In this document: one piece after another, positions 38,684 to 64,000 of the stretch
Numbering within the stretch: position 1 is the first letter of the stretch
How the letters are laid out: each line of letters starts with the position of its first letter
Origin: Pilasporangium apinafurcum
Taxonomy: Eukaryota > Oomycota > Peronosporomycetes > Pythiales > Pythiaceae
DNA: 64,000 nt
NCBI GenBank assembly: GCA_001600495.1
Contig: BCKE01000005.1
Span: 916,888-980,887, forward strand
Direction of reading: 5' to 3'
Notes under the pieces: generated by a model
What the model saw: the letters and a program-made list of their open reading frames with translations, nothing else
What the model was told of the DNA's origin: nothing
The model's database searches: none
Program-made: the position numbers and the translations under genes

Positions 38684-41600
38684 ATGGACAACAAGATTCA
38701 CCGAATGGTATGGGCTCTCAGGAAAGTGTCCCAAAAATGACTTAACCAACGCCCAGTTTTATTTATGTGAACGTAGAAACCAAGCGAGCTCCTTCATGCT
38801 TTTTCGACCGCGAAAGTCAAAGCTGCTCGTCATGTCACCAGCAGGATTATTGATTTTGTCAACGCTGGCGACCACACATCAAATGTTACTAGCACGGTGC
38901 CCTTGCACAAACCGCTATTTGAGCCCACACCTGCAGAAGTTTGGATCGACGATTATACACCATTCCATCCTGTCACTATCAAATTGAGCTTCCGGAATTG
39001 CGACTCTGTCGCGAGACGTCTCAAAATCGAGCCACCAAAATCGCCTTGGTTTAAAGTGCTCCCATGGACTAACAAATCGTGTAGTCAGGAGAACAAAATC
39101 GACGGGAAAATCGCCGCTGGTATGGAAAAAGCATTCCAATTGGAGTTTTCACCTCAAGAAATCCGAGAATATGCAGAAGACCTTATTTGTTGTACGGAAC
39201 GTGAACGATTTCTTCTACCTATTCGGGTTCGTGGGCGATATGCAGCCTTGGATATACCAGATGAAATTGATTTTGGTCTCTGCCCTGTCAAAATGACAAC
39301 GCAAAAAGTACTTACAGTTCGTAACGTCGGATCACGAGGCGCCAAGTTTGCGTTTAAAACCAGTGAAAATTTCCATATAACACCGTCAAGTGTGGTACTC
39401 GAACAGGGTGGTGTGGTTCAGCTTGAATTGAGCATCTTACCGCCCACTTTAACGACCAAGGAAGGTGAGCTTGCTGTCACAGATGATGCTGGGCAAGTGG
39501 CTGTCGTCCATCTCCACGGAAAGGTTGCAAACGTAGATGTTTATCTGAGTCAGCCAATTGTAGAACCGTCTCCGTCGTATATATCTCTTTCGTCTCGAAA
39601 GACTATCAAGATCTGCAACGAGAGCGAGTTTACACTCGAATTTTGCTGGAAAGCCTTTGCGGATATTACAGGGGAGGAGCTAGAACGTGACCGTTTGCTG
39701 GAAGAGCTGGCAAGGATGGAAAACGCAGAGCTCGAGCAACTCATACACGATCCTGATCAAGATTCGTATCCTCTTTCTTCGTCCCAGTCACCGTTTGATA
39801 CCAGGAAAACTATCGAGAACAAGTATAAGCAATTGCGGAAGGCGACGATGGAAGATGCAATGCAGTTTGTGAACGAGTGCTTTTCGCTTGTTCCAATTAA
39901 AGGGCGAGTGTGGGCGCATTCTGAAGTGGATGTAGTGGTTTGTTTCTCCCCTGCGATTGCACTCCAGTACTCATGTTGTGCCTACCTTGAAATCTCTGGC
40001 CAAGAATCACGGCTGCCACTGCAAATTCGTGGTAGAGGCATCGGCCCTAAAGCCAAAGTCGTTTATAATGAGTTGCTGGATTTTGCCGATGTCTTCATTA
40101 ATGATGAAAGAACACGCGATTTCACAATACAAAATAAAGGTGAGATTCCTGCTGAATTTGAGCTGGTTCCAATCTCCATGGCTCCTGGTATAGTATTGGA
40201 TGTGCAGCCGAGCGCAGGCACGCTTGAAGTGAATGCAATGCGTAAAGTTGAGGTTACGTTTTGCTCCCATCAGCTGGGTCAAGCATTCTATCCTATTCAC
40301 TTCAGTCTTCGCGGGTCTGAAGAGCAACTAATCGTTCGATTAAAGGCGAATGTAATTCCACCAATATTTCATTTCGATACCGACCAAATTGATTTTGGAG
40401 CTGTGTCATATTCTTTTCCGCAGACCAAGACTTTGAAACTCATTAATGCCTCCAAAATTGCTATCAAATACTCGCTAAAAATTCCAGAGGAAGCAAACTA
40501 CAAGCAAAAAGAATTTGAACTATTTCCTGTTCACGGCAAGTTGGATGCATTTGGGGAGCAAGAAGTTCGTATCAACTTCACTTCATGTAATGTCAAGACC
40601 TACGAATATCACCTTGTAGTAGGAGTGGCGGGAATCGGATCAGACCTGCTTAGTATTCCTATCAAGGCTCAGTGTTTCGTTCCTGATATTGTTGTTCAAC
40701 AGCCACAAGAACTCGATTTTGGTGCTTGCTTCCTCCGTTATCCACACACTCAAACGCTTGTGCTCGAGAATAAGTCATCGCATTTGTATGGCCGGTTTGA
40801 AATTGGTGAACAGGATGATCACTCACGCGCCATTGCGACATACAACGCAAGTGAATTTTCAGGCACAATTCCTCCCGAGGAGCGAGCGGCTGTCGACATT
40901 TATCTGTCATGTGAAAAACTAGGAAGTATTCGTCTTCCAATGGCCGTAACAATTCCAGGAAGCACAGATTTGCCTCTAGCAGTGACATTGACTGCCGTTG
41001 GAACAGGGCCAAAGGTTGAGCTCGACCAGACAGAAATCAATTTGGGGAACTGCATGTGCCTTGTCGATCACGAGCGAATTCTAAGAATGACTAATACGTC
41101 CCTCATACCTGCACACTTCAAAACTTTTATTCGAAATGCTCGGTCAAAGTTTCAAATTGACAAGAAAGAGGGTACCTTACCACCAGGGGAAAGCGTCGAG
41201 TTTGTTCTTATAGCAAACTTGGACGATACGATACTATTCAAAGATCAACTTCACATTTTGATCACTGAGGGTGAAAATCTGGTGATCCCACTATCGATTA
41301 AAGGTATTGGAACTACGATGTGGTCTCCCAGCGAATTACGTGTGATCGATTTTGGCCATCAGATGACCAATACTGAATGCGAATGGAGATGTACACTCGA
41401 AAATAAAGGCAAGCGTCCTCAAGTTCTCTCTTGGGTAAATAAATCAGCTAAACTCGCTTCAGACACAAGATCTTCAATATCATCGACGAAACGAACTGGC
41501 GTATCAAATCCCAAGAAACCCTCTGATGCCGCTGCCATTACGGTGACTGAGTCCTCGAATAACACAAATCGTTATCGAGATGTAAACAGTAGCAAAAATG

Positions 41601-44600
41601 CAGATGATGACGAACGCCTTCCTGTATTTTCAGTATTTCCGTGCACCATCGAGCTGAAACCTCGCACAGCCTGCGTCTTTGTATTCAAAGGACTTTCTCT
41701 TGTCGCAGGATCTGTTCGAGAAGAACTGGTTTGTGAGACGCGTGTCGGTAAAGAGAAAGCCAACAAGATTGCATTTGTCACAGAAATTCGTGGGAATTTT
41801 ATGGACCCAAAACTTATACCATCGTCTCCCAGTTTAGCCTTCGAGTATGTTCACGAGCCAAAACTAGGAAATGAGATTCCTCGTCAATCTCAGCCACTCT
41901 CCTTCACCAATGGGTGTGAGTTACCTTTATCATTTACGCTTCGCACCCAAGCTCCCTTTTCGCTGGACTGCTGGGAGGCGGTACTTCAGCCAAATGAGAA
42001 ATTGGATCTCAACGTCGAGTTTTACCCAGGCTACAAGGATGACCAGACATGTCGAGTGATCAACGGAAAAGTACTGATTGTTTACACGGGCCATCCACAG
42101 AAGGACACCGTCGACCTTGTTGGTGATATCAGCTTTCCAAACATTGAGTTTGAGAGCTCCAAAATTGACTTCGGCTGTATCCTCAATGACACGCAGAATT
42201 CCATTCGCATCAATATCAAAAACGTATCGAAAGTCAATACAGCTTTTCGGTGGGTGTTTATTGAAAACGAGCAGGAATCAAGAAATAATGCGACATCCAA
42301 GAAACCTTATATCCCTATCAACCAAGTATTTGATATCTTACCGATTTGTGGCTTGTTAAGGCCATCTGAAAGTGAAGTTGTGGAGTTTATTTATTATGGT
42401 CATGCTAATCGTAAATTCAAGAGTACGGTGGTCTGCGAGGTGGAAGGTGGTCCAGAGTATGAGCTCGTCTTATCGGGAGAAGCGTCTTCATTGGTCTATA
42501 AGCTTGATAAACAATGTCTGGATTTTGGGCAAGTAGTGTATAATAAGATTGAAGACCGCGAATTTTCGATCATCAATGTGGGCAAAGTGCCTTTTGCATT
42601 CAATATCGCCACGGATATGATCTCGCAGAGAGGTGGCCGATCGGTGGAAGTCACACCAACAAGCGGAAAAATTGCCCCGAACGATAAATTAAAGGTTCTT
42701 GTACGTATAAAGCCTGGGATTCCGGAGCAGTTTGACGAAACAATATTGCTAGAAATTGCACATTTCCAGCCAATGGAGTTTAAATTATATGGTAGTGGAA
42801 TATTCGCATCAGTATTGATGAATCTTCCACGGGAAAATCATGCAGCGTGTACAATCCAGGGTGAGTATCCGAATTGGAAAGAGTTGAAGAAGCACGCACG
42901 ACAGAGCATTGAAATGTCTACAATGACTGCAGCAATGGCGGCGGGAATAAACAGTAAAAGTATGTCGTCATCGGATTCGAAGTCCACTATTTCTACCACA
43001 GTGAAAGGGTTAGAAAAAAACAATGGAACGGGTTCCTCATCTTCAATCCCACCCTCGTCGGTTGGAAAGTCCGTGACACGGCCAGCAAACAGCATTGTTC
43101 GTGGACATGGTAATAGTATGTTAAATTCCGTGGCTCAAATTGACAATCTGGACATTGAAATTGAGGCATGTCGACTGTTTTTTGCCGATTATCTCCTGGT
43201 TCATGGAATGAAAAAATTGGAGACGAAGAGCCCGGATCGTCTCGATGGTCTTCCTGTGCCTCACACGGAGGACATCCGAAATGAGAAGGTCTTGAGCAAA
43301 GGAAACACTATTTCTATTAAAACCATCAAGAAGCGTGCCCCAGAATCTTTGGCGTTCGTGCTGTCCCAGTTTGTCTTAGATTTCGGGAATGTCATTCTGG
43401 GAACGCACAAAATCAAGAAATTTAGTGTTACGAACATCGGTCACTTGCCTGCATCGTTCCAGTTCGACAAAAACCTTGCGCTATCGAGCGGCTTTCAAAT
43501 CGAACCTGAACGAGTGGTTCGTTTACCGGAGAAGCAGGCAATTGAATTCTCAGTCACATTTCAGGCACGAAAGAGCAATGACATGGGGGTTCATGAAGTC
43601 CAGCTCCCAGTTGTGATGAAGAATGGCCCACCATGCATAGTTACAATCCGGGCGATGGTAACAGTCCCAGATATCTCCATTTCCACGGAAATCCTGGATT
43701 TTGGAAAGATCACAGTCAGTACTTGCCATACTGTGTTTACACAATTGCAAAACATATCCGTCGTCCCAGCAGAATGGGCAATAAAGAAGCCGATGGGCTC
43801 CATAAAAGATGTAATGAATTTTCGAATCGCACCTCAGCAAGGTGTGCTTGCACCAGGACACAAAGTGAACTTGAAAGTGGAATTCATACCAAGTGACGGT
43901 CGCCTTTACATGGTCAAATTGCCCGTAAAGGTAACTGCGAATCCAAAAACGCGGTCAATCACGTGCAAAGGAGAAGGCTCAGAACTTCGGTTAAGTTTTC
44001 ACCCGCCCGTTGTCGATTTGGGACCAATCTTGCCTTGTTCATCACCTGCTGAGGTAATCGTGGAAATGCGGAACACTTCCGACTATCCTGTTGAAGTGTT
44101 TTCGCTTGATTTCGATCCAAATTATAAGAAAGACGAGGAATTGTTACGGTCCTTGAATGCTTATGACCCAGAAGGAATGATGCAACTACCAATATACACA
44201 CCTGGTCAGCCATTGCACGACTATCTCTCCACTTGCGGTTTGCTTCCAACAGAGACTGTTAAAGCTCCCGATGTCCCATTTGCGGAAGATGAAGTGGAAA
44301 CAAATGTCCTCTCTCAAGATGAGACAGTGGATAGTTTTGTAGATCCAGCGACAGAACCTACTTCAGCTGAGCCGGTATTAATTTCAGAGCCACCAGCAGC
44401 TCATGTACGGAGGGGTACCGATTACATTTTACTTGGTCCACCACGGTGTGGGAAATCGACGCAAGCCCAACTGCTTGCTGAAAAGGAGAATATAACCATG
44501 TGGACTATAGACGACGCAATTAAATCTGTCTTTGTCGACCAAAGTCCGATCGGTCAAGCTACTCGGATAGCTTTGGGTCTTGAAGAAACCACTGAAGACA

Positions 44601-47600
44601 GTCAAGTTGAGTCATCTGAAGAGATCTCAGTAAAATCTGAGGCTTTGACTAACTATCCTCATGTAGCAACATCGGAGTCTCCAGAGACGGAAGAGGGGAA
44701 CCAAGCACCAATAGATGATACCCTTTTGGGAGACAAGCATTCAGCTCCATTGGCTGCCTTATTGGATCAAATACTCGTATGGCGCATGAGCCAACCTGAC
44801 TTGCGTGCCGGTGGTGTTCTTGACGGGTTTGATAATTCTTTTGTACCGTTTGACGCAACGGTAAAAGCATGTGCGAAAATCTTTTCTTCCGCTCGAATTA
44901 TTTGGTTGAACTTCGACGAAGAAAGCTACGAGCTCATGTCTGCTTTTATAGAAGAGCAAGAAGCAAACACAAAACCCATCAGTATTTTACCAACGTCTTC
45001 TTCTAAAGAAAACGCGATTGCTATGTCTTCCATGGATCATATAGTTCATGGTGCAAATCATGTTGACAGCGATGAAATGGATAGCGCGACACCTGAAGTA
45101 GGCAAACCCATTGACCTCGGAAACAACGCAAGTGAGCCCTCTCAAACCATAATCGGGGCGGACCAACCTCTTTCTTTGAATATATCACAAATAGAGCGAT
45201 CCGTCCACGAAATGAAGCTGGAGGAGCTAATTTCGCGTGCTGATATAACATCTGAGATGAGACCAAAATCATTCATGGAATATTTAGACTCATTAGAAAG
45301 TAGAAGGCGTCAGGTGATTACGTTTCTGGTTCATGACTTAAATGCAGATCAAAGTGATGGAAGACAAGAACTAAATACCAAGATTTACAACGATCAGGAT
45401 CTTCTTGAGCAGCAACAGAAGGATCGAACGGCTCCAAACAATTTTCTCTTGAATATTCCAATTACAGAACCTGGTGCACCGCTTCTGATTCATACTTTGA
45501 TTCATTCATCCCTAGACAAGTTTGTTCGTGAATTTGAAGCAACACACCTTCCAATACCACTGCCAGCAAAATATCAGCTTATTCGCCGCCCTACAGAGCG
45601 ATTTGCGAGAAAACCTGTGGTTCGCTTTTCGCTATCAGCACCAAGTGAGACGAACGGTTATCAATCAGCGTCTGCTGATATGAACAGAATCAGCATGCGA
45701 TCTGATGAGATAGAAGCGGAAAGCATTAATCCAGTAGTGAAGCCAGTCTCCTCCAACTTACCCGGTTATCGTTGGGTTATTCCCCCAAATGAAATTGCTC
45801 CACTAGCGATTCGCTTTGCCTCTTGTGACGTGGGTGTATTTGATTGCAGTTTGGGCTTTGAAATTGTTGGAGTTCGACGAGAGTTCACACTCTTTTGTCG
45901 CGCAATATGCAGTGTTCCGACGATCAATGTCGATCCCAGAAATGTGTTTATGCACCGCGTAAAGAGCCGTCCTGAGGGACAATTTGTTCAGAAGAAATAT
46001 GTGCTTTCTCGAAATCAATTTGAATTTGGACCGCTAATTGTTTCCACCCAAAGTGTTAAGCCTCCAGAAACGGAAGTAGAATTCTTGGAGTACCAAAAGT
46101 CTAGTCCACAAAACATGGAGATATTTCGGATGTCAAACAACAGCAAATTTCCTCTTCGCATTGATTTCGCAATGGAAAAAAACGTTGATCATACGTTTGC
46201 CGTGTACCCCCCGTCTTTGGACGTAGGAGAAGGAGAAACTGGCGAAGTGAAGGTGTGGGCATATCCGCCCACGGATGGACTGCACGAGAACAACCTAGTC
46301 TGCTGTATCAGTGATAACCCGGAGCCAGTAGTTTTCGCGGTCAGTTGCTATGGCTGTACTCCAAAACTTACGCTTCGTGGCCCGTGGGAACAACCATCAG
46401 CCATTAGCACATCTGAAACGAAAGATCATCAATTGGCGGATGCAAACATACAGGAGCAAACTGTTTCACCAATTCTTGATTTCGAGCAACTTCTTTTGAA
46501 GAAACAAGACGATAAAACCTTTTTCCTCGAAAATGAATCACCAGTGGCTATCTGCTGGCGCTTTGTCAATATCACCGAGTTGCCATCCGATTTCCGCGTT
46601 TTCCCAGTCGATGGGCAGATCAAAGCATTTCAAAAAGCCCCTGTATTAGCAGTGTTTACTGCTACAAATGAAGCAATTCATCGGTTTGAGCTAAAGGTTG
46701 AGTATTCTGCGGCGGAATCTGGATTTCAGATCGAAGAACAAAATCGGGTGATATCGATAATTCTATCTGCAGAAGCTTATAAAATTGATGTTTGCTCGTT
46801 TGAGCAAGATAATACTGAATTGGGTGATGCATCTGGTATAAACAACAGGAGCGGAGATGGAAGCATTGATTTTGGCCTTGTTCGAGTTGGTGAACGCCAT
46901 TCCCGAGCATTCACTATTCGCAATAAAGGCAAGTACAACATCAAGTATGTCATCAGTATCCGCACACCTGCTTCGAAGGAATACTTTCAAGTGGAGCCAA
47001 CTGAGATGATTTTGGAGCCCAGCAAGGTTGCAACTGTAAATGTTTTCTTTCAGTCCAAGAATGAGGTTACTCTGAAAGAATGTAAAGACATAAAGTGCAC
47101 GATCATCGAGATGATATCAGGTGAACCATGTCGTGAATTTTACGTGTTTACGAGTGCTCGAGCGGTCTTTAGCCAGTTTCGCCTTCAACCAAATCGTGGA
47201 ATTAACTTTGGACCACATAAATACAATGAGCAGCCGAAACCAAAGCGAATTGAGATACGAAATGATGGAGAGTTCCCCTTTAAATACCGCATCAAGGCTT
47301 CATTTACGACATTAGCGGAAGCAGAGGCACAAGAACCACCTTTGACATCCGAGTCAACCCTATATCCATCTACGTTGAATGTCGGTCAGTTCTCGATTTC
47401 ACCAGATTGTGGCACGATTGATCCTGGGGTGACCGTTGGTTTAGAAGTTGTCTTCCAGCCCAAGAACTGCCGAGTGTACCAAGAAGTTGTTTGCATTGAC
47501 ATTTCAGGTCGAAACATTCTTAATTCAACTGAAGCTGATTTGCTTCATTATGAGCTAATCGGGGAAAGCTGTTATCCGAGTATCAACACTACGAATTATG

Positions 47601-50600
47601 AAAGCATTTTTGAGGAGCAAATAGTTGTGCGAACAATTGGAGTCGAATCGTCTATGACATCTTCATCAGGAACTGGAGCACTTGGTGCGATAGGTTATCA
47701 GCATGTCGTCTTTGCTGAGAACGAGAAGGTGTTTTCATTTGGTGCGGTGATAGCTGGTATACACGCGAAGGGAACAGTAGAGCGGTTTAAGATTTCGAAC
47801 CCAACCAAAGTGAGTACTACGGTGCAGTTCCAAATCATCCCCGATTTAAATAGTAAGAATTCGACTCTTGGAATGAGTGACGGGAATACTGTCATCCAGG
47901 CATTCACGGTGCAGCCGGCTGTATGGGAAATCCCACCACTTGAGCATCGCTTTGTGAGCGTCTACTTCAAACCGACAACAATTGCATCTTATCACGCCAT
48001 CTTTAATGCGACTGTAGACGACAGTCCTGAGCAAAGTGATCCACAGGATACCCGTTTACAGTTTCAATTGCGTGGAGAAGGCACTATGCCTTGCATTACT
48101 GTGATTGATCCGATCCAGCGGGACCCAGAGGGTGCTTTACACCTCAATTTTGGGAGAATTCGTCTTTCAAAAGGGAAAGAGTTACCGCTTACGCTCAGGA
48201 ACGACGGAATCTTAGCAGCGACAGTTCTCTTTACGATTCAATCAAATCCAAACTTTATCTTTTCACTAGCAAATGGATCAATTATCATACCTCCCAAGGA
48301 AACTGAATCGTTATCGATTCAGTTTAAGCCTCAAAAAACGCATGAAGAACCAACAACATGTATTCTAAAGATTGCGGTTCAAAACAATCCGTTTGATGAA
48401 ACGATTGTGAAGCTTACAGGTGTTGGGTATAAAGAAGATTTGACTTTCGAAGATTTGCCATTTGGACACGATGACGAGCTTCACTTTGATGATATTCTCT
48501 TACAAGCATTAGCAACTGACAAGGACAGATCTAACTTCGATGTCAAAGATGTCAAGGTATTCTCGTTATGCAATCCATCTAATGAGGTGGTTCGCTTCGA
48601 GTGGCCCAAGATGCCTCCGTTTCACTTCTCTCCAAAGATCGGGCATTTAAAACCCAGATCCTACAAGCTTATCACAGCGGAATTTGTCCCCAGTACCACA
48701 AATGCAGTCGTCTACAATCTCCATCGTGTTTCTCTCCATGCGCAGCGAATTAGATACAGAGATTCGTCATTGATGGAGCACACCAGTGATTGGGACGAGA
48801 ATATTCGTACCGTAACATTTCAGGCAGAGCGAGGCACAGGAGAAACTTTGAAAGAACCGGAGTATGACCCTGTCGGTATATCGTCTACAATTACGTTAAA
48901 CTGTTTCGCGGCAGCAGATGTACCAGCATACACATGTGATACCACCACGATCAAATTTCGACGAACATTTATGCTTCAAGTTTGTAGCCACCGCATCACA
49001 GTCGTCAATAAAAGCAAGATCAAACTACCGTTCACGTGGCGATGGGAACGGGTCTACCCTCATCACGATTTGGGTGGAGGAGAATATTTCACGGCTTCGG
49101 CTGGTATAGATGCAGACGATGAGTGTCCCTTCGAGATTGATCCAAAAAGTGGTTGTATTCCTGCCGATGCCACTGAAACATTCACTATCAAGTTTGCACC
49201 GATGGAGGTTGACGATTTCCACTATAACTTGGTGTTTGATGGTCCACCAGGATACCAACACCATCACGATACAGAGAACCTGACTGCATTACGCATCTAC
49301 GTTGAAGGTAGTTCATTGCGGCCAGCATGCCACTTTGACGTTGAGCTAAGTGATTATGCGCAGCGCAGGGCTCCCAACCACGTCGGGCCAAATGGAGAAC
49401 TAGGTCCGTTAGATCCTTCTATCAAAGTGATCGAGATGGAATCGCTGGGTGTGCGCGTCCGCAATACCCGTCGATTCTACGTGGTAAATCCAACCAACGT
49501 ATCTTATGAGTTCTCATGGACACCAGAGTCAGAAACAAATCCGTGCTTCCGATGCGCCACCCCTAGAGGATTGATGCTTGCAGGTAAGCGTTGTGAGATG
49601 ATATTTGAGTTCACACCCCAACAACTAGAGCTACAGGAGATGTTTTGGCGTTTCAAGATTCCACATTTCCAAGTTAGTCAGCTCTTTCTCTTTGTGGGGA
49701 CAACTACCGAACCGCGTGTGACACTGGATCGTGGTAGTGTCAACTTCAACACACTTTTAACGGGCACGAAAGCATCTCAGAGCGTGGCGCTGGTCAATCA
49801 AGAACACATTCCATTTAACTTTGTGTTTGACAAAGCGTCACTCGATTTTGCAAGCGAGATCCCTGCTCTCGTTATCCACCCGCTCAGCGGCGTGATTCCT
49901 CCAAATGGTCGAACAGCGATTGAAATTGAATTCATGCCGACAGAAGAGAAGATGTACAATTTCAATGTGAATTGCATTATCAAGCGAAAACCCACACGAT
50001 TATCGCTCAATATCAAAGGAGAAGGGCATAGCATTCATGATGCACTCGTAATTTCTTCAGATGATCACAGCGAAACTCGACCAGCTCTGCTTGGTTCTGG
50101 GAACATTTTAGACTTTGGTGCCGTGCGTATGAATGAAGATTCACAGCGCATGATCACCATCCACAACTCTGGAAAATTTAATTTCGAATTCAACTGGAGC
50201 ATGATGAAGCAAGCGCCAGCGCTGTCCATTGAACCGATGCAGGGAACAGTCAAAAAGAATGATAAAGTGATTTGCCGGTTGACATTCGCGCCAACCAAAC
50301 AATCGTCTGTTGATGGTAGACAGATTACCTGCACCATAGCAGGATCGAAGAACTACGTATTTACTGTCCACGGGACTGCTGTGCCGCCTTCGTTGCAGTT
50401 TTCCTTCACGTCATATGATTTTGGTCCGTGCTTCATCGCAGAACCAGACGCACTCCCCATGTCCGAGACTGCATTACTCAACATCTTCAACATGGACCCT
50501 GACGCTGGTGTTGACGTGGACTGCTTGCTTGAGAAGAAACCACATTTACGTGTAGATTGTCCGCCTATGGTGCTTGGCCCACGAGAATCGGTAAATATCC

Positions 50601-52915
50601 CCATAGTATTTACTGCGCGTGCCGAAATATCCTACTTGGACATGGTTCCATTTACTATCAATGGCTCTTCCACGGTGACCATCGCTATCCGCGGCGAAGG
50701 GATCTTTCCAAAAGTGGAATTGGTTAATACCTCTATGCGGAGCATCTCATTTGGTAATCTGCAGATCCAACAGCAAACTTCTCGAATAGTCAAGATCGTG
50801 AATCGCTCTAAGCGAAAAACGCTCGTCAAGATCCTAGATTCCCCGCAACCAGGTGTTCCGTTGCTCAGCCAACTAAGTATTTCCGTGTTTCCCCAGCAAG
50901 AGGTGATGTTGCGACCAAAAGAAAGTACCGATATTGAATTCAAGTTTTTTCCAACCCAGCGTATTCCCAGCTTCGTGAGTGATGTTTATATGGCGGTAGC
51001 TGGAAGTGAAAAGAAATTGTTGACGCTCTCTGGGTGCTGTCAAGGTATGGAAGTGATTTTAGACACCGATACGCTCCTATTTGGTACGGTTTGCCTTGGT
51101 AGTCAACTCGTTCGTAAAGTGCGGCTGCAAAACCGCGGCGATATCACCGCCAAATTCCAATGGAATCCGCGTGATTTTACTCCAGATTTCTCCATTTCAC
51201 CAAGCGAAGGAATGGTCGCACCAAATCATCACAAAATATTAGAAGTGACATTCAAGCCATCGGCAGTGAATGCAGACATTCGATATGATCACTTGGCTTG
51301 TGCGATCGAAGGAACAACTCCCGTGCTGCTGACATTGGTTGGCTCTTGTGCACTTCAGGCCCCATCCTCAATCCAGGACATTCACTTTTCGTCGCGGGTC
51401 CGCGAAACCACGACCAAGTCTATCATCATTGAAAACAAAACGACTTTGCCGTGGAATCTCTTTCCAGTCGTACAGGGCGAACATTGGTCTTGTCCAGAAA
51501 ACATCACTGTGCCAGCTGAGAGCCAAGCGACGATGGATATTATTTATCACCCCCTGAAGATGACATCAGAAAAGCAGAATGATGATTTCAATCGGCCAGA
51601 AACCCATGAAGGCTCGATCTTCTTCGCCCTTCCAGATGGAGGTGCACTGCTATATAATGTGTATGGAAAAGCGTCTTCACCATTATCCGCAGGTTCCCTG
51701 ACGCTCACGACATCGGCGAAGAAGTACTTACCGATCACGATCCCTCTTAATAACTGGTTGAAGGCGCCTCAAACATTTGTTGTAGAAATTAAGAAACCTG
51801 CAGAGAACGACTCCATCATTACTCAGGGACCAACATCGATCATGCTTCACAGCGGAGCTACCAGGCCCTATAATCTAAAATTCTTTTCTTACACGGAAGG
51901 GGAAGTAAATCTGCAAGTTCGCTTTATGAACATGGAAAATGGTGAGTATCTTGTGTTTGACGTCAATGTGACTGTGACGAAGGCGGCGGAGATCGAGACA
52001 CTACATTTAGAGGCACCGGTGCGCCAGTCAATTCGCAAGATACTGACGATTGAAAACCCATTTGATGCAAGTCGAGTTATCCATTTCGTCGACAAAAACC
52101 AATGGTGGAAGTGCACGAGTTCGACGATTCGAGTTCGCCAGGTCAACTCTATCAGTGGTCGACCAGAAGGATCATACGAAATTGAATACCGTCCGTTTAT
52201 TCATGTAGAGGCGGCAGTGGAGGCTTCTCTCACGATAGCTTTTGCTGAGTTGGGTGAATACACATATAAACTGATGTTGACAACACAACCGGCAGGAATC
52301 GACAAAGTTCTTCACTTTAAGGTTCCATTAGGTAGTTCTGAAACCCAAACGTTCACGTTTACATCGTATGCTGATAAAGCCGCGGATATGGCATGTACCG
52401 TGTTGCAGTCGACATTTTTCTCCGTTCCACCATTGTGTAGAGTCGAAGCCTCTAGCGAGTGGGAAGGGAATGTGTATTCAGTTCCAGTGAAATTTGAACC
52501 CGAGGCGCTGGGTGAGGTGCGTGACACCCTCACACTCTTTGCTGACTCGGTAGGGGATTACAAGTGCGCGCTGCAAGGGCTTTCGGTTCCACCTCTTCCG
52601 CAGGGACCATTCATCTTTGCGAATTCGAAGGATATTGAATTTAAGAATGTCTTCTCCTCTGCGAAAGATTTCGACGTGATGGTTGACAACTCGCTCTTCC
52701 TGTTATCCGCGCAGACTATTACCATTCCAGCTAAAACTGCAAAAACCATTTCCATCAAAGTCGACATAGCTGCTGCTGCTGCAAGCACTTCTTCAACTGG
52801 GAAGGCCACACAGGGAGTGAATAATATTACTGGCAAGCTCTTTATCTCGTGCCCATCGATGCAAACATTTCCTCCGTGGGTGTACTACCTAGAAGCGACG
52901 TTGCCATCAATGTAG
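38684..52915 (+). CDS. HYDIN: HYDIN-like giant axonemal central-pair protein
   Basis: A 24-base first exon (38684-38707) joined to one enormous exon (38777-52915) gives about 4720 residues; animal HYDIN is about 5100. The protein is an array of beta-sandwich ASH/MSP-type modules, each recognisable by phrases such as 'LDFG-x-V', 'F-x-I-x-N-x-G-x-x-P', 'G-x-I-x-P' and 'V-x-F-x-P'. Near residue 1890 an adenylate-kinase-like insert carries an intact P-loop GPPRCGKST (1895-1903), also found in animal HYDIN. HYDIN builds the C2b projection of the central pair. The first exon is inferred from the phase-matched GT-AG join and MKPSELLHAF start; the main exon is certain. It stops 67 bp before the convergent STN1 stop. 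Confidence 0.95.
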
Positions 52916-58809: not shown

Positions 58810-60274
58810 ATGCCCGAGGAGATCGACATTGGTTCCAGTCTCAAAGAAAGCAAGCCAGAACTGTCCAGATTGGTAGAAATGCCACCTAAAAAGCAGATCT
58901 TGAGGATTGTGATTACCATCCAAGACCGATTTGAGTACGGACTCCTCGCACAAATGTGTAAAGAGCATAGCATCCAAAACGTGGTTCACGCTGACCAACA
59001 ATTTCATCAAGACAAGAATGAAGATATGAAAGCAAGACAACGTCTCTAGTCTCATGTTAACGTCTTCGTTGTGAGAAGAAATGAAAGGAAGGCAGACAAG
59101 AATGCTCAGAAGACTCTGATCTCCGATCCCCAAAAGGATCAAACGATGCAAGATAGATAAACCAAGTCCAAACAGCATCTTGAAAGTGAGGTTGTATCCA
59201 ACAAAGGAACAGAAGCAACTTCTCAACAAGATGTTTGGTACCAGAAAGTATTGGAGTGTCCTCACTGACAGATATGTCAATGCTGCTAGAAATATCTTTT
59301 TCAAGAATGAACATCTCCAGCAGCGTCGTAAAAGAGAAAGACGAAAATATGATAGTATCTCCTGACAATTACGTTCTCGATACTGTCGTTGGGATCGATC
59401 CTGGCACGCGGTCGGTCTGCACTGCCACTCGTGTGTGAGAAGTTGATGTGGAAGAGAAGAAAGTGAAATGCAACGGAAGAGAACCCAAGCAGAATCAAGT
59501 GAAAGAGTCAAAGCAGAAACGACGAAAGGAGCGGAAGAGGAGACATAAGCACGGTGTTCGACGCAAGCGAGCCAGTAACCAGCGGTACAATGTTCAACAT
59601 ATATCTACGCGAGAGTACAGGCATCTCGCCGGGATGAAGAAGCACACGTTCTGGTACGAGAACTTGAAGAAGAGGGAACAGGAGTACGCTAGGATCATTC
59701 GAGAGATGCCTTCGTTTAAGACAGCGTCGTATGACCAGTATATGACAAACGTCAAATACGTGTGGAGGCATCTCGACTTCTTGGTGAGCTTTTGTGCATC
59801 GCATCCATTTCGTAAATGGCGTTTTCTTCAGTCGAGATTTAGTCGGAAGACGTTGGCACATCTGGCATAGCTGTTGGTACCCACGCCAAGTCCTCAGGTT
59901 TGCATTGGCCTCGGTGACTGGAGTCAACAGGACTTCGTCAAGAGTCACGCGCATGGACCCGTGAAGTGATTCACATGTGAGCTGGCAAAGCACGCGACCG
60001 TGGTACAAATCGACGAGTATCGCACGAGCTAGCGGTGCTCCGAGTGCTACCAGCAGCTTGAGGAGACTTTATTTCCGATAAAAAAGCTGATGGAAGCGCA
60101 GACGTCAATCTTTCCCGTCAGATTCTCCGTTGTAACAACAGCGAGTGCAAAATCACGTGGGAGCGAGATGTGAATGCGTTGAAAAGCATCCTTACACTCG
60201 CTATATGTCTCCTACATGGATTTCCAAGACCCCCAGAGTTGCAACGAGGAAGAAAGAATGTAGGAAGAGAATAG
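58810..60274 (+). pseudogene. Decayed Fanzor/TnpB-like RNA-guided nuclease gene (copy A)
   Basis: Fragments of one protein lie in order on the + strand but in all three frames with several stops. There is a leader (MPEEIDIGS..., 58810-59049), the OrfB-type start KVRLYPTKEQKQLLNKMFG (from 59180), the RuvC-I block VVGIDPGTR (near 59386), then a long basic and aromatic region (HLAGMKKHTFWYENLKK, ...MTNVKYVWRHLDFL) to 59868. The GLGDWSQQD block is near 59910, zinc-ribbon Cys pairs (CSECYQQ and CNNSEC) lie near 60032-60150, and the RuvC-III block WERDVNALKSIL (Asp) is near 60165, ending at a TAG at 60272. The catalytic landmarks survive but the gene cannot be read as one frame. Family assignment is firm; activity is not expected. 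Confidence 0.82.
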
Positions 60275-60380
60275 AGTGTAAGAAGAGTATCCGTGAACAT
60301 TGGGAGAATCAACCGACTTTTCAAACGTGTTCACGCGGTTAGTCCGTGCTCTGGTAATCGCCATTAAAGATTTCAAACGC

Positions 60381-60400
60381 TCAGAGGGGTCAGCCCTCTG
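60381..60400. repeat. Short inverted repeat upstream of the HTH fragment
   Basis: CAGAGGG and CCCTCTG flank a five-base loop (GTCAG). It lies between the end of copy A and the start of the helix-turn-helix fragment, where an element boundary is expected. Confidence 0.4.
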
Positions 60401-60443
60401 GTTGTTGGTGTTGACCCTTATATTGTCATATAGCACCAATACC

Positions 60444-60578
60444 ATGAGACCCAAAGCCGAAGATTACAAGCTGGCTGCTGTCAGGCACTTCCTGGAGGTG
60501 TCTCATTCACGTGAAGCGACCTGTAGAGCCCTGCATTGCTCTTANAGGTCTCTGAATCGGTGGATTGACAGGTATTAG
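60444..60578 (+). pseudogene. Transposase-type helix-turn-helix fragment
   Basis: Forty-four codons from an ATG to TAG encode YKLAAVRHFLEVSHSREATCRALHC and RSLNRWIDRY, the N-terminal HTH of Tc1/IS630-like transposases. One base is N (60545). It is out of frame with the Fanzor-like reading frame that follows about 55 bases later, with a frame break and two further N in between, so whether it was once fused to that frame or was a separate transposase cannot be told. Confidence 0.55.
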
Positions 60579-60633
60579 CAGACAAGTCGGGTGCAGAGNC
60601 ACAACAGATCTTNCGTCGAAAATAAAAATCTAA

Positions 60634-62613
60634 TACAGGGATATAGTCGGATGGAGTTCGGGGACAGACCCCCCGGACCCTAACTTACCGTACTACAAAG
60701 CGATCAAGACCAGCCTTGCCTCTGTCCTCAAGACTCCGGAAAAGCAGCCGGTGATCGGTCGGGCAGCGGTGATAGTCAACCGCATCGTCATTCGATCGCC
60801 CCTATTCCTCAGGCTGCACTTGATGCACCACAAGGATACACCACCNATTGTGAATGCCGAACTGGTAAACACAGTGTTCAAGACAATTTGTCAGCAGAAG
60901 GCTAGAGATAGACCGCGTTCGGCCACCGCCAAAGCCCTACGGGACAACTTGACTGCGTTCTACAAGCAGCACTTCGAGCCCCTGTTGCCGATAGGAGACC
61001 AACCATCGTCCTAGACTCACCTCAACACTGTGCTCGACTATGCTTCCGTACAAGCGGTGATTGTCTTCGAGACCAATATCAAACAGCACTTCGTCGAGTA
61101 TGTAGAAGCATATGTCAACACGGTGCGGCAGAAAGACTACCTGGTAGAGCGCATCAGAGCTACTAGGATAACCAAAAGGGAGCGTGAGGCTGTGATCAGG
61201 AAGCTATGTGTTACTCTCCGGCAGCTCAAGAACGATCTGTTGAACGTCAGTTCAGAGCCTTTTCAGTCGCATCCCTTTTACCACTCATGGGTGAGGCAGC
61301 AGAAGAATCTAGTACTACCTACAAAGACCAGGTATGAGAAGGATCTGCTGTATTGCGACCTGCAGTGCAAGCCACAGGACTACTGATCCGGCATGCTGAG
61401 GATGACCGAGGTAATCGAGCAGCATGATAAGAAGCTCTGTAATTTCTGTCCTCTGAGGACCAGCGTTATTCCAAGGCACATCACACTGGGCATGACCACC
61501 CTGGTCCACCTGTTGTTCACCAAGGGGAACGGTACCAAGCCCAAGCTGCCGACCAAAGGAGAGCTGGTGTAAAACAAGAACGAGATATGGGAGACGTTCT
61601 TCAGGACTAACATGAAGGTGTTCAAGGCACGTGACTACTGGTTCAACCACATGATCAGCATCGATGGGGTCGCTCGCAGCATCCTGCTGATCAGACGCGA
61701 CCTGCACGATAAGAATACCCCAAAGAAAAAGCTCGTAGTGGCTCGGGAGCGGTACGTAGACGACCTGACAGTGGATGAAGCGCAACAGCTGAGCGAGCGA
61801 TGTGTGGTGGGAATCGACCCCAACATGAGCGACCTGCTGTTCTGCACCAACGAGGATGTCTCCAAGCAGCATCGTTACACTCAAAACCAGCGCAGGCAGG
61901 AGACCAAGGCCAAGAAGTATGCTCAGATCATGCTGAACGACAAGATGCACTCTTTAGTCGAGGGTCGCACGATCGTGGAGTGGGAATCGGATCTGTCGGT
62001 GTATGACCGCAAGACTGTCAATAGCGACAAGTTCAAGGCTTTCATCAAGGCTAAGCTGCTGCTGAACAGCAAGGTGACTAAGTTTTACGAGGGCGGACTG
62101 TATCGCAAGACGCGACTGAACAATTTTTACAACATACACAAGTCTGAACAGCGGCTGGTGCAACACTTCAAGGAGATCTTTGGCACTCCAGACAAGATAG
62201 TGGTGGGCATCGGTGACTGGGAGCAGAAGAAGCATCGCAAGTTCAAGGAGCCCACCAAGGGAAAGGGATTCAGGACTCTGTTGAGGAAAGCCGGCTATTC
62301 AGTGTACTTTGTGGACGAGTTCAAGACCAGCTGTCAGTGCTCTCACAGCCAAGCCGAGAGTGCCAAGTGCGAGAAGTTTCGTGTCAGGCTGGATCCAAAC
62401 ACCAAAAAGGCTGATGAAGACAGACAACTCCGACTTGTACATGATCTATTGTTGTGCCAACAGTGTTATAGGATGTGGAATCGAGATGTCAACTCTTCAA
62501 TCAACATAGCTCGCCCCACAAGGCAGGCTCTGATGGGAAGAGAGCGACCAGAGTATCCGAATTGCCAGATACAACTGCCACCAGCACACAGTGCTGTTGC
62601 GTCGGCAGCATAG
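60634..62613 (+). pseudogene. Fanzor2-like RNA-guided nuclease gene with three in-frame stops (copy B)
   Basis: One continuous frame of about 660 codons is interrupted only by TAG (61012), TGA (61384) and TAA (61570) and one N (60846). The segments match the Fanzor family in order: YYKAIKTSLASVLKTP, VNAELVNTVFKTICQQKA, NTVLDYASV...NIKQHFVEYVEAYVN, LRQLKNDLLNV, TTLVHLLFTKGNG, WFNHMISIDGVARSILL, then RuvC-I VVGIDPNMSDLLFC (Asp codon at 61816), RYTQNQRRQETKAKKY, GIGDWEQKKHRKFKEPTKGKG (near 62202), VDEFKTSCQCS, a Cys-pair zinc ribbon (CQCS...KCEKF; LCQQCYRMW), and RuvC-III WNRDVNSSINI (Asp codon at 62485). All catalytic landmarks are kept. The gene is unlike copy A, so the two arrived separately. 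Confidence 0.88.
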
Positions 62614-62821
62614 AACCATAATTTACATTGCACTGGGATGCTCGAACACTGCTTTTTTAGGACTCCCAGGGCATTTAAAATCTTCAACGGTGTAAAGAAG
62701 ATTTTCATTGGGTACTGGTAAGCAGAACACATGCTCTTAACATGTCCTAGAATGAGTTTCAAACATCATCTAAAAATGAAGTCTTATTATTGGCTGAAAA
62801 TATTTTTGATCTACAACATAT

Positions 62822-62852
62822 ATGTGTTCTGAGCCCTTATTTAAGAACACAT
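62822..62852. repeat. Inverted repeat, 9-bp arms, 13-base loop
   Basis: ATGTGTTCT and AGAACACAT are perfect inverted copies. They lie 209 bases beyond the copy B stop. Confidence 0.55.
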
Positions 62853-62997
62853 CGCGGAAGTATCATGGGCGAGGACTGTGTAGCAATGGGGTTTGCTGAT
62901 TGGACAAAAAGGCAGAATATGTAATTTGATTAGTTGAAATTCGGAAACTTGAAACTTGGACGGTCACCGCGCTCAAAGGAGAAGTTGTAACACATGC

Positions 62998-63061
62998 CTG
63001 ACCTCGCACGCAAGGGACAACCGTGGCATCGGCATGTGCCTGACCTTGCGTTCGAGGTCAG
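62998..63061. repeat. Long hairpin, 18-bp arms with one mismatch
   Basis: CTGACCTCGCACGCAAGG (62998-63015) and CCTTGCGTTCGAGGTCAG (63044-63061) are inverted copies with 17 of 18 bases paired and a 28-base loop. The GC-rich arms stand out in AT-rich DNA and would fold strongly as RNA or single-stranded DNA. Confidence 0.7.
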
Positions 63062-63142
63062 ACGACATTACATACCTTAAAGACATTTCAATACATTAAG
63101 AGGGAAAATAGTCAGAAATACATAGTTGCATATAAATACATG

Positions 63143-63513
63143 TGTAAAGGAAGAAAGNAGAAAGATGATCGTAATCAGATTAGGAAAACATGCATTCAAC
63201 GGAAGCTTAGATGTAGTGATAGCGAACTAAGTCCTCCATCTAATTCACTTTTCATTTTGCGTTCAAGTTGCCACCTCCGCTCACCAACGTCCTTCAAGTT
63301 CGTCGTATTTCAGCCAATCATAATTCTTCAAGTCGACTTTTGTCCAATCATCGTCTGCAAAAACCAGTAATCGTCACAGAAGTGGTGAGTTGTTGGCAAA
63401 ATGAAAAGTGAATTAGATGAAGGACTTAGTTCGCTAGCGCTACATCTAAACTCCCTTTGAATACATCTTTTCCTAATCTGATTACGATCATCTTTCTATT
63501 TTCTTCCTTTACA
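63143..63513. mobile_element. Foldback/MITE-like element with terminal inverted repeats of about 118 bp
   Basis: The left arm (63143-63260) begins TGTAAAGGAAGAAA and ends CACTTTTCATTTTGC. The right arm (63397-63513) is its inverted copy, beginning GCAAAATGAAAAGTG and ending TTCTTCCTTTACA. The arms differ at roughly a tenth of positions, with one N in the left arm at 63158. The 136-base centre has no coding capacity. The structure is that of a non-autonomous snap-back DNA transposon. Confidence 0.85.
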
Positions 63514-64000
63514 GATTTATGTGATGGACCGTTATCCATTACATAAGAAGGTGGAATCTGATTACAGATTCGTGTGTCACAACACCACCTTCTCTACGTA
63601 CATTGTGGGTACGGAGATGAGATATNGTTTGCGCAAAACATATCCCACATGTACAGATGACGTCACTCAGTCATCTGAGTACGTCATGAAGNTCTCTGTA
63701 CTAGTCAGTACAGAATGATGGTTCCTACTTTGGGAACAATGTTGATAATGAGGACGATGCGTCACTGAAGATTCATATGCGTGGCTCCAGCCAATCACAG
63801 AGCTTCATTTGAAGAAGATTCTCTTCTTCAACTGACTGAAAGAAGTTCTCTAGGTTCAACCTCACTTCCAGGAATGTACCCAAGGTTATATGTATCAGAT
63901 TCATAGGTTTTATATCACTTTAGTAGGTTCATTGCATTTAGCCCCATAGGCTCCTAGTGGTTTTATATTTTTAGGAATCATTGACATTTAATTTAGTTGC
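63514..64000. other. Structured non-coding repeat-like DNA, no gene identified
   Basis: A 65-codon ORF (63521-63718) contains two ambiguous bases and no family resemblance. Palindromes at 63696-63713 (CTGTACT/AGTACAG) and 63809-63831 (TTGAAGAAGA/TCTTCTTCAA), and a CRE-like pair TGACGTCA...TACGTCA near 63660-63688, suggest a repeat or a retroelement long terminal repeat. The window ends inside it. Confidence 0.35.

Follow-up and report, generated by a model that had tools for sequence, protein, structure and literature searches.

A decayed Fanzor1-like gene in a probable transposase-less mariner-type element of Pilasporangium apinafurcum

A long but interrupted coding frame near the end of a contig of the oomycete Pilasporangium apinafurcum raised the question of which kind of RNA-guided nuclease it had encoded, what had carried it, and whether an intact copy persists. 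The window, meaning the whole stretch of 64,000 nucleotides analysed here, forms the end of contig C5 in an assembly of 36.5 Mb and 136 contigs. Frame reading of 60634–62613 on the forward strand bore out the first-pass annotation, which had described about 660 codons broken by TAG, TGA and TAA: all three stops were found in frame (Table 1), followed by the terminal stop, and the final 346 codons were open. We consider it very likely that this ORF is a Fanzor1 pseudogene, formerly encoding an RNA-guided nuclease, that was carried by a Tc1/mariner-type DNA transposon, the transposase of which was lost by internal deletion.

Class and catalytic residues of the frame

The open C-terminal piece of 346 codons matched the OrfB/TNB zinc-ribbon profile PF07282 (E 1.1e-6, 29.2 bits, cut-off 26.3), in agreement with the TnpB/Fanzor family assignment made earlier from the letters alone. 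Comparison of this piece with PDB chains returned only two distinct sequences up to E 10, namely SpuFz1 from Spizellomyces punctatus (1.3e-23) and PpFz1, the Fanzor 1 of Parasitella parasitica (3.5e-21; PDB 9cf0), the latter being a distant sequence relative. A Fanzor2-type zinc-ribbon fragment from the same genome (L022:2851–3183), used as a control, had its best match in mimivirus L79 (2.2e-9), a TnpB-like protein which we take to be a Fanzor2, and also matched bacterial TnpBs; thus, Fanzor2 and TnpB structures were present in the searched PDB set.

The RuvC-I Asp, the GxGDW block and the RuvC-III Asp reported previously were all located in the window frame: GIDPN at 61810–61824 with its Asp codon at 61816, GIGDW at 62206–62220, and NRDVN at 62479–62493 with its Asp codon at 62485. 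Additionally, a RuvC-II-type Glu was present in VDEFKTS (codon 62317). In the alignment, counterparts were found for all four residues described as metal-binding in SpuFz1, D383, N385, E541 and D606 (PMC10432273). Because the PDB matches were to Fanzor1 alone and these residues have counterparts, the frame was assigned on sequence grounds to Fanzor1 rather than Fanzor2. The RuvC-I motif reads DPN where most Fanzors have DPG, a motif described as near exclusive in Fanzors (PMC10711439); SpuFz1 likewise has Asn at this position. The "alternative" RuvC-II Glu, described as preceding the zinc ribbon in Fanzors (PMC10711439), lies here in VDEFKTSC, five residues ahead of the first zinc-ribbon Cys. 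The two Cys pairs noted earlier were not both complete, one zinc-ribbon Cys being replaced by Ser in the window copy (CSHS vs. CSYC in L022).

Table 1. Features of the element in the window and deletion classes of its relatives (window coordinates).
Feature	Position	Strand	Basis or remark
Whole element, TIR-flanked derivative of a transposase/Fanzor1 transposon	60361..62696 (about)	+	Recurring sharp ends in blastn against 20 fetched copies
Left TIR, inner part	60361..60378	+	Relatives read TTTACACCGTTGAAGATTTCAAACG; GC-rich palindrome then to ~60402
N-terminal helix-turn-helix (HTH) of the lost transposase	60444..60575	+	HTH_23 5.1e-7 in sister copy L038; deletion junction near 60615
Fanzor1 pseudogene	60634..62613	+	Stops TAG 61012, TGA 61384, TAA 61570
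RuvC-I Asp-Pro-Asn	61816..61824	+	Aligns with SpuFz1 D383 and N385
RuvC-II "alternative" Glu	62317..62319	+	Aligns with SpuFz1 E541
Zinc-ribbon region	62332..62466	+	PF07282 1.1e-6; one family Cys is Ser in the window copy
RuvC-III Asp	62485..62487	+	Aligns with SpuFz1 D606
Putative omegaRNA scaffold, 75 nt	62622..62696	+	RNAalifold on 41 copies
Right TIR	62665..62696	+	
Putative guide start, if the SpuFz1 anatomy holds	62697..62711	+	By analogy with PMC10432273
885-bp deletion class	near 61168/62053		8/20 fetched copies
1617-bp deletion class	near 60714/62321		9/17 short loci
1659-bp deletion class	near 60816/62470		5/17 short loci
716-bp deletion class	near 61504/62217		4/4 mid-size loci, these picked by match pattern

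The element, its copies and the lost transposase

The frame lies within an element wider than the ORF first named. When the window was compared by blastn with 20 fetched regions, which were among the best-ranking places of the own-genome protein search with the window excluded, all or parts of 60361–62696 were matched, with the same ends and different flanks. These ends are inverted repeats (TTTACACCGTTGAAGATTTCAAACGCCCAGGG in relatives), of which the outermost ~6 nt on the left are degraded in the window copy. When up to 2 mismatches were allowed, the 19-nt terminal repeat had 83 hits in the genome, compared to 1 for the reversed control. Most element ends carry TTTA...TAAA; no target-site duplication outside this motif was seen by eye in the ends listed, and no empty site was found. 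The own-genome search with the window frame gave 121 matches (121 scored of 225 candidates). Those with at least 50% identity (83 rows, merged by hand to about 63 places) constitute family A, and confirm the suggestion that sister copies exist elsewhere in the genome; the remaining 38 rows (26–41% identity) belong to other families.

Downstream of the element, at 63136–63520, the window contains a MITE-like inverted repeat with 142-nt arms that are 87% complementary; in L023, a relative of this repeat begins ~140 bp downstream of the Fanzor copy. A literature search on Fanzor and MITEs returned nothing on Fanzor among the matches listed.

Upstream of the Fanzor ORF, the element encodes an HTH that the first-pass annotation had missed and that, in the window copy, does not share the frame of the Fanzor ORF. 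The probable start codon of the Fanzor1 pseudogene itself, at 60651, lies in this HTH frame. No DDE transposase is present in the window copy, which keeps only the HTH of the transposase. Family-A copies of the window type (form A) have the HTH at their 5′ end, and form B has another ~200 nt in its place. In L036, an ORF matching DDE_3 (4.3e-10) stands just before the Fanzor frame, and the form-B stretch corresponds to the tail of this DDE_3 region: the tail of L036 matches the 5′ module of 16 form-B copies at 73–90% DNA identity. The DDE fragment itself matched nowhere else in the genome (1 match of 4 candidates). On the same contig (C8), 8.5 kb upstream, L077 contains a form-A HTH (90% DNA identity to L038) that is not joined to Fanzor and continues into other sequence. 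L025 and L057 (2 of 42 copies) have a 105-bp piece of this post-HTH sequence, 88–90% identical, separating the HTH side from the Fanzor region, and represent a third 5′ form. L077 is cut by a 1.2-kb stretch that is 99.9% identical, inverted, to the L036 sequence upstream of the DDE part.

These inverted 1.2-kb repeats (L077:779–1998 and L036:928–2147), which flank 8.5 kb on C8, are probably the long inverted ends of a young element that landed within the transposase gene. The simplest reading is that C8 carries one transposase–Fanzor1 element split by this later insertion, and that the three 5′ forms are three kinds of deletion within the transposase gene. Judging from these comparisons, the ancestral element probably consisted of two genes, Fanzor1 being closely preceded by a Tc1/mariner-type transposase (HTH, DDE_3). 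The host element in the window is probably a mariner-type transposon that lost its transposase. The two-gene element was pieced together from several loci, since no copy with HTH and DDE uninterrupted was found, no outer left TIR could be recognised in L077 or ahead of the L036 DDE part, and two L077 pieces downstream of the HTH matched no Pfam family. DDE_3 transposases are present in the genome (59 matches, 89 candidates), so that mobilisation in trans is possible in principle.

The joining of the HTH to the Fanzor region could also be read as a fusion protein maintained by selection, in which a DNA-binding domain captured from the transposase anchored Fanzor1 to its own TIRs. Consistent with this, 27 of the 28 HTH places at E < 1e-7 adjoin family-A Fanzor matches, the remaining one being L077; 16 of the 19 form-A copies examined (counting L057, which belongs to the third 5′ form) have an HTH reading frame that continues as far as the junction, and the frame was kept in both of two junction variants located 30 nt apart. 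However, both parts were in frame in only 6 of these 19 copies, about one in three, as expected after C-tract slippage, and private changes gave no sign of selection at the protein level. We therefore regard a selected fusion as unlikely; equally doubtful is the proposal that a deletion in a mariner–Fanzor1 element made, in frame, a chimeric nuclease with the transposase HTH as its N-terminal domain. Structure models were tried and not used, being too poor (mean pLDDT 42.5 and 39.4). The HTH–Fanzor form is now decayed, at 27 places, and no report of a transposase HTH joined to Fanzor was found in the available excerpts of the open-licence Fanzor literature, including work on oomycetes, Phytophthora and mariner elements.

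Many family-A copies are internal deletions with shared breakpoints, or "ghosts" (Table 1), and the family-B loci L071 and L072 have a 1918-bp deletion in common. Preservation of the reading frame by these deletions was considered as a signal and rejected: those of 885, 1617 and 1659 bp are in frame, but those of 716 bp and, in family B, 1918 bp are not. The smallest derivatives, L045 (about 145 bp), L041 and L043, keep 109–122 bp of the right end. Among four apparently unpaired TIR hits (L041–L044), two were small derivatives and two showed the repeat alone; no transposase was recognised in their listed ORFs, and one stretch of L043 had no Pfam match. The HTH and transposase-tail 5′ forms both occur within the 885-, 1617- and 716-bp classes (L030–L039, L050–L059 and L066–L070). 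This suggests that 5′ modules were exchanged between copies, a point that trees did not resolve. ORF-less, repeat-flanked "ghost" loci have been described in S. punctatus by Saito et al. (PMC10432273).

The right end kept by these derivatives contains a putative omegaRNA. Right ends were sought at 45 loci; none was obtained at 3 of these, and L033 was removed manually because its end had been mislocated, so that 41 copies could be folded. The predicted fold comprised a terminal helix of TTTACAC/GTGTAAA type and an inner helix of GAGAT/ATCTT type, with a further hairpin over the ORF end, and 93.7% of the cells were paired in the 41 copies. Covariation in these right ends did not exceed that of shuffled alignments (335 of 500 shuffles reached the observed score). 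The SpuFz1 scaffold is described as 75 nt long, with transcripts reaching 14–15 nt past the conserved region (PMC10432273); the predicted 75-nt segment after the stop would fit this anatomy in length and place.

Origin, age and assembly of the window copy

The frame had also been suggested to come from, or to spread with, giant DNA viruses, and a mariner–Fanzor1 element, PGv-1, is indeed known from Phaeocystis globosa virus (PMC3627910). Two scans of viral contigs gave this no support, although they constitute a weak test as they use few peptide patterns: the first found no relative, and the second found one remote TnpB-like ORF of 486 aa (53% over 30 residues). Two other genes of the window, for OGDH and a HYDIN-like protein, are of cellular kind, and we judge a viral connection slightly less probable still than a selected fusion. 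The HYDIN-like ORF (38897–52915) is a single uninterrupted frame of 4672 aa. It would point to a flagellated host, and a TPI–GAPDH fusion ORF found in the genome would point to a stramenopile, which makes an oomycete likely; a search of the assembly for 5.8S rRNA returned no match.

The earlier description of a dead, nearly full-length gene for an RNA-guided nuclease was upheld; its dating as recent was not supported. In 10 full-length copies, which include the window copy and omit L021, L028 and L029 (set aside as either almost duplicating the window or being extensively rearranged), private C>T/G>A changes per opportunity were about equal at synonymous (113/5050, 0.0224), missense (105/4970, 0.0211) and nonsense (10/528, 0.0189) sites, and the coding sites of 18 copies differed from the column majority at 7–8%. 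The decay thus looks old and largely neutral. Pairwise dN/dS was 0.40 and 0.37 for the two halves of the 10 full-length copies and 0.50 for 8 copies of the 885-bp class; purifying selection as its cause was rejected, as simulated neutral evolution under the same C>T-rich spectrum, itself taken from the alignment that gave dN/dS, yielded 0.42–0.46. The total of nonsense changes fits neutral decay less well, being about half of the context-matched expectation (36 observed vs. 68 expected). In the full-length copies, shared nonsense changes (0.028 vs. 0.068) and shared A>G/T>C missense changes (0.013 vs. 0.034) were depleted, and coding indels were few. Because the copies were fetched by protein-search rank, which favours those with fewer stops and may explain part of these departures from neutrality, they were not taken as proof of selection.

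The expectation that sister copies might be intact did not hold for family A, in which the genome search revealed no intact member: the longest open frame among the matches scored was 500 aa, compared to the expected ~650. Eight of the other nine full-length copies have in-frame stops, and the ninth (L027) is free of stops but has frame-breaking deletions. Open frames do occur in other Fanzor1-like families, in L073 (681 aa; SpuFz1 2.5e-9, GtFz1 3.6e-5) and L075 (623 aa; altered zinc and RuvC-III motifs), placed by alignment only, with PF07282 below the cut-off. The Guillardia theta Fanzor1 (PDB 9cer), a distant relative, was matched by L073 and not by the window frame. At least 152 matches (150 scored of 693), fragments included, were obtained for families B and C together with their relatives. 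Among the matches listed in the separate Fanzor2-type search, one at C62:20513 lies inside an open frame of 504 aa. For a genome of 36.5 Mb, Fanzor-like places are many.

A further question was whether errors of assembly had created the three stops, in which case this locus of the window would hold an intact gene. The position of the window at the contig end, the location of all its 7 N bases within 60545–63692 (the last 3.5 kb), and its relation to L021 on contig C37 would allow for this. The interior is 99.8% identical to L021, where all three stops recur along with the element's four N positions, and the ends differ by about 16–17%; there were 5 differences over 60398–62527, compared to 28 over the last 169 bases and 6 over 60361–60397. 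This likeness possibly reflects gene conversion or assembly collapse of repeat reads; this assembly is therefore no basis for dating the stops. Nevertheless, the interior, even if borrowed from another locus, is itself dead, the other nine full-length copies are all disrupted as described above, the HTH and Fanzor frames disagree and one zinc Cys is lost, which makes an intact gene at this locus very unlikely.

That the frame is a Fanzor2 (IS607-type) gene, as it was initially called, is the least tenable reading and can practically be dismissed: Fanzor2-type matches are common in this genome (at least 150, with 150 scored of 800 candidates, fragments included) and one such remnant lies nearby (59180–59362, HTH_OrfB_IS605, 7.7e-8), but the structure matches of the frame were to Fanzor1 alone where the Fanzor2-type control went to L79, the surrounding element is TIR-flanked and probably of mariner type, and its HTH is of the HTH_23/28 and not the HTH_OrfB kind. 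The nearby remnant, a Fanzor2/IS607-type N-terminal part running into a C-terminal-like fragment, is apparently an internally deleted Fanzor2 element. Between it and the element lies a further Fanzor1 relic (59550–60077), which is interrupted by three stops and, at 47% identity to family B, represents a second family.

Relation to known Fanzor1 elements

Mariner elements with a transposase and Fanzor1 (PUl-1, PGv-1), as well as Fanzor1-only relatives (PUl-4), were described by Bao and Jurka (2013; PMC3627910), in whose list of Fanzor1 hosts oomycetes are included. The family studied here resembles PUl-1 and PUl-4 of Pythium ultimum and PGv-1 in its TIRs and in the location of Fanzor1 within a Tc1/mariner element (a probable one here) that may or may not keep a transposase gene. 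Compared by description, it differs from them in that no uninterrupted two-gene copy was found and that one deletion form joins the transposase HTH to the Fanzor region. With SPu-1, the element of SpuFz1 (Saito 2023; PMC10432273), it shares the TIR-flanked Fanzor1 organisation, a similar size, the D-N-E-D metal-binding set, a right-end RNA segment of ~75 nt (putative here) and ORF-less derivatives that keep the right end. Unlike family A, SPu-1 has intact copies, and no transposase was reported within its repeats (PMC10432273); compared with SPu-1 as described there, family A has deletion classes with shared breakpoints and an extra N-terminal HTH in the form-A protein. The window copy is an old, dead member of a known element type, which adds detail to that type rather than constituting a new system.

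Combining the parts seen across several copies, the ancestor would have been ordered TIR, transposase (HTH and DDE), Fanzor1 and omegaRNA/TIR. The transposase would have been lost by internal deletion, the window form keeping the HTH joined to the Fanzor region, a second form the last ~60 transposase codons and a third a middle piece. These derivatives, and smaller ones, kept their ends and were, most simply, moved by a transposase acting in trans. By analogy with SpuFz1, the active Fanzor1 would presumably have used the 75-nt right-end RNA and 14–15 nt of flank to cut matching DNA, and such cutting would favour retention or copying of the element. RNA-guided DNA cleavage is thus presumed for the ancestral Fanzor1, and the window copy encodes no intact protein.

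The family offers a view of a mariner–Fanzor1 lineage at a dying stage, in which a probable two-gene element gave way to transposase-less forms and to ghosts in which the right end survives. If binding to the element ends persisted in the HTH, the chimera, as an RNA-guided cutter tied to its own transposon, could have competed with or aided the transposase; provided that it ever worked, it would illustrate how a DNA-binding domain can be added in nature to an RNA-guided nuclease. Several Fanzor1 families occur in this small genome alongside remnants of Fanzor2 type, and open frames persist in some of them, so that P. apinafurcum may be useful for studying the role of Fanzor in transposition.
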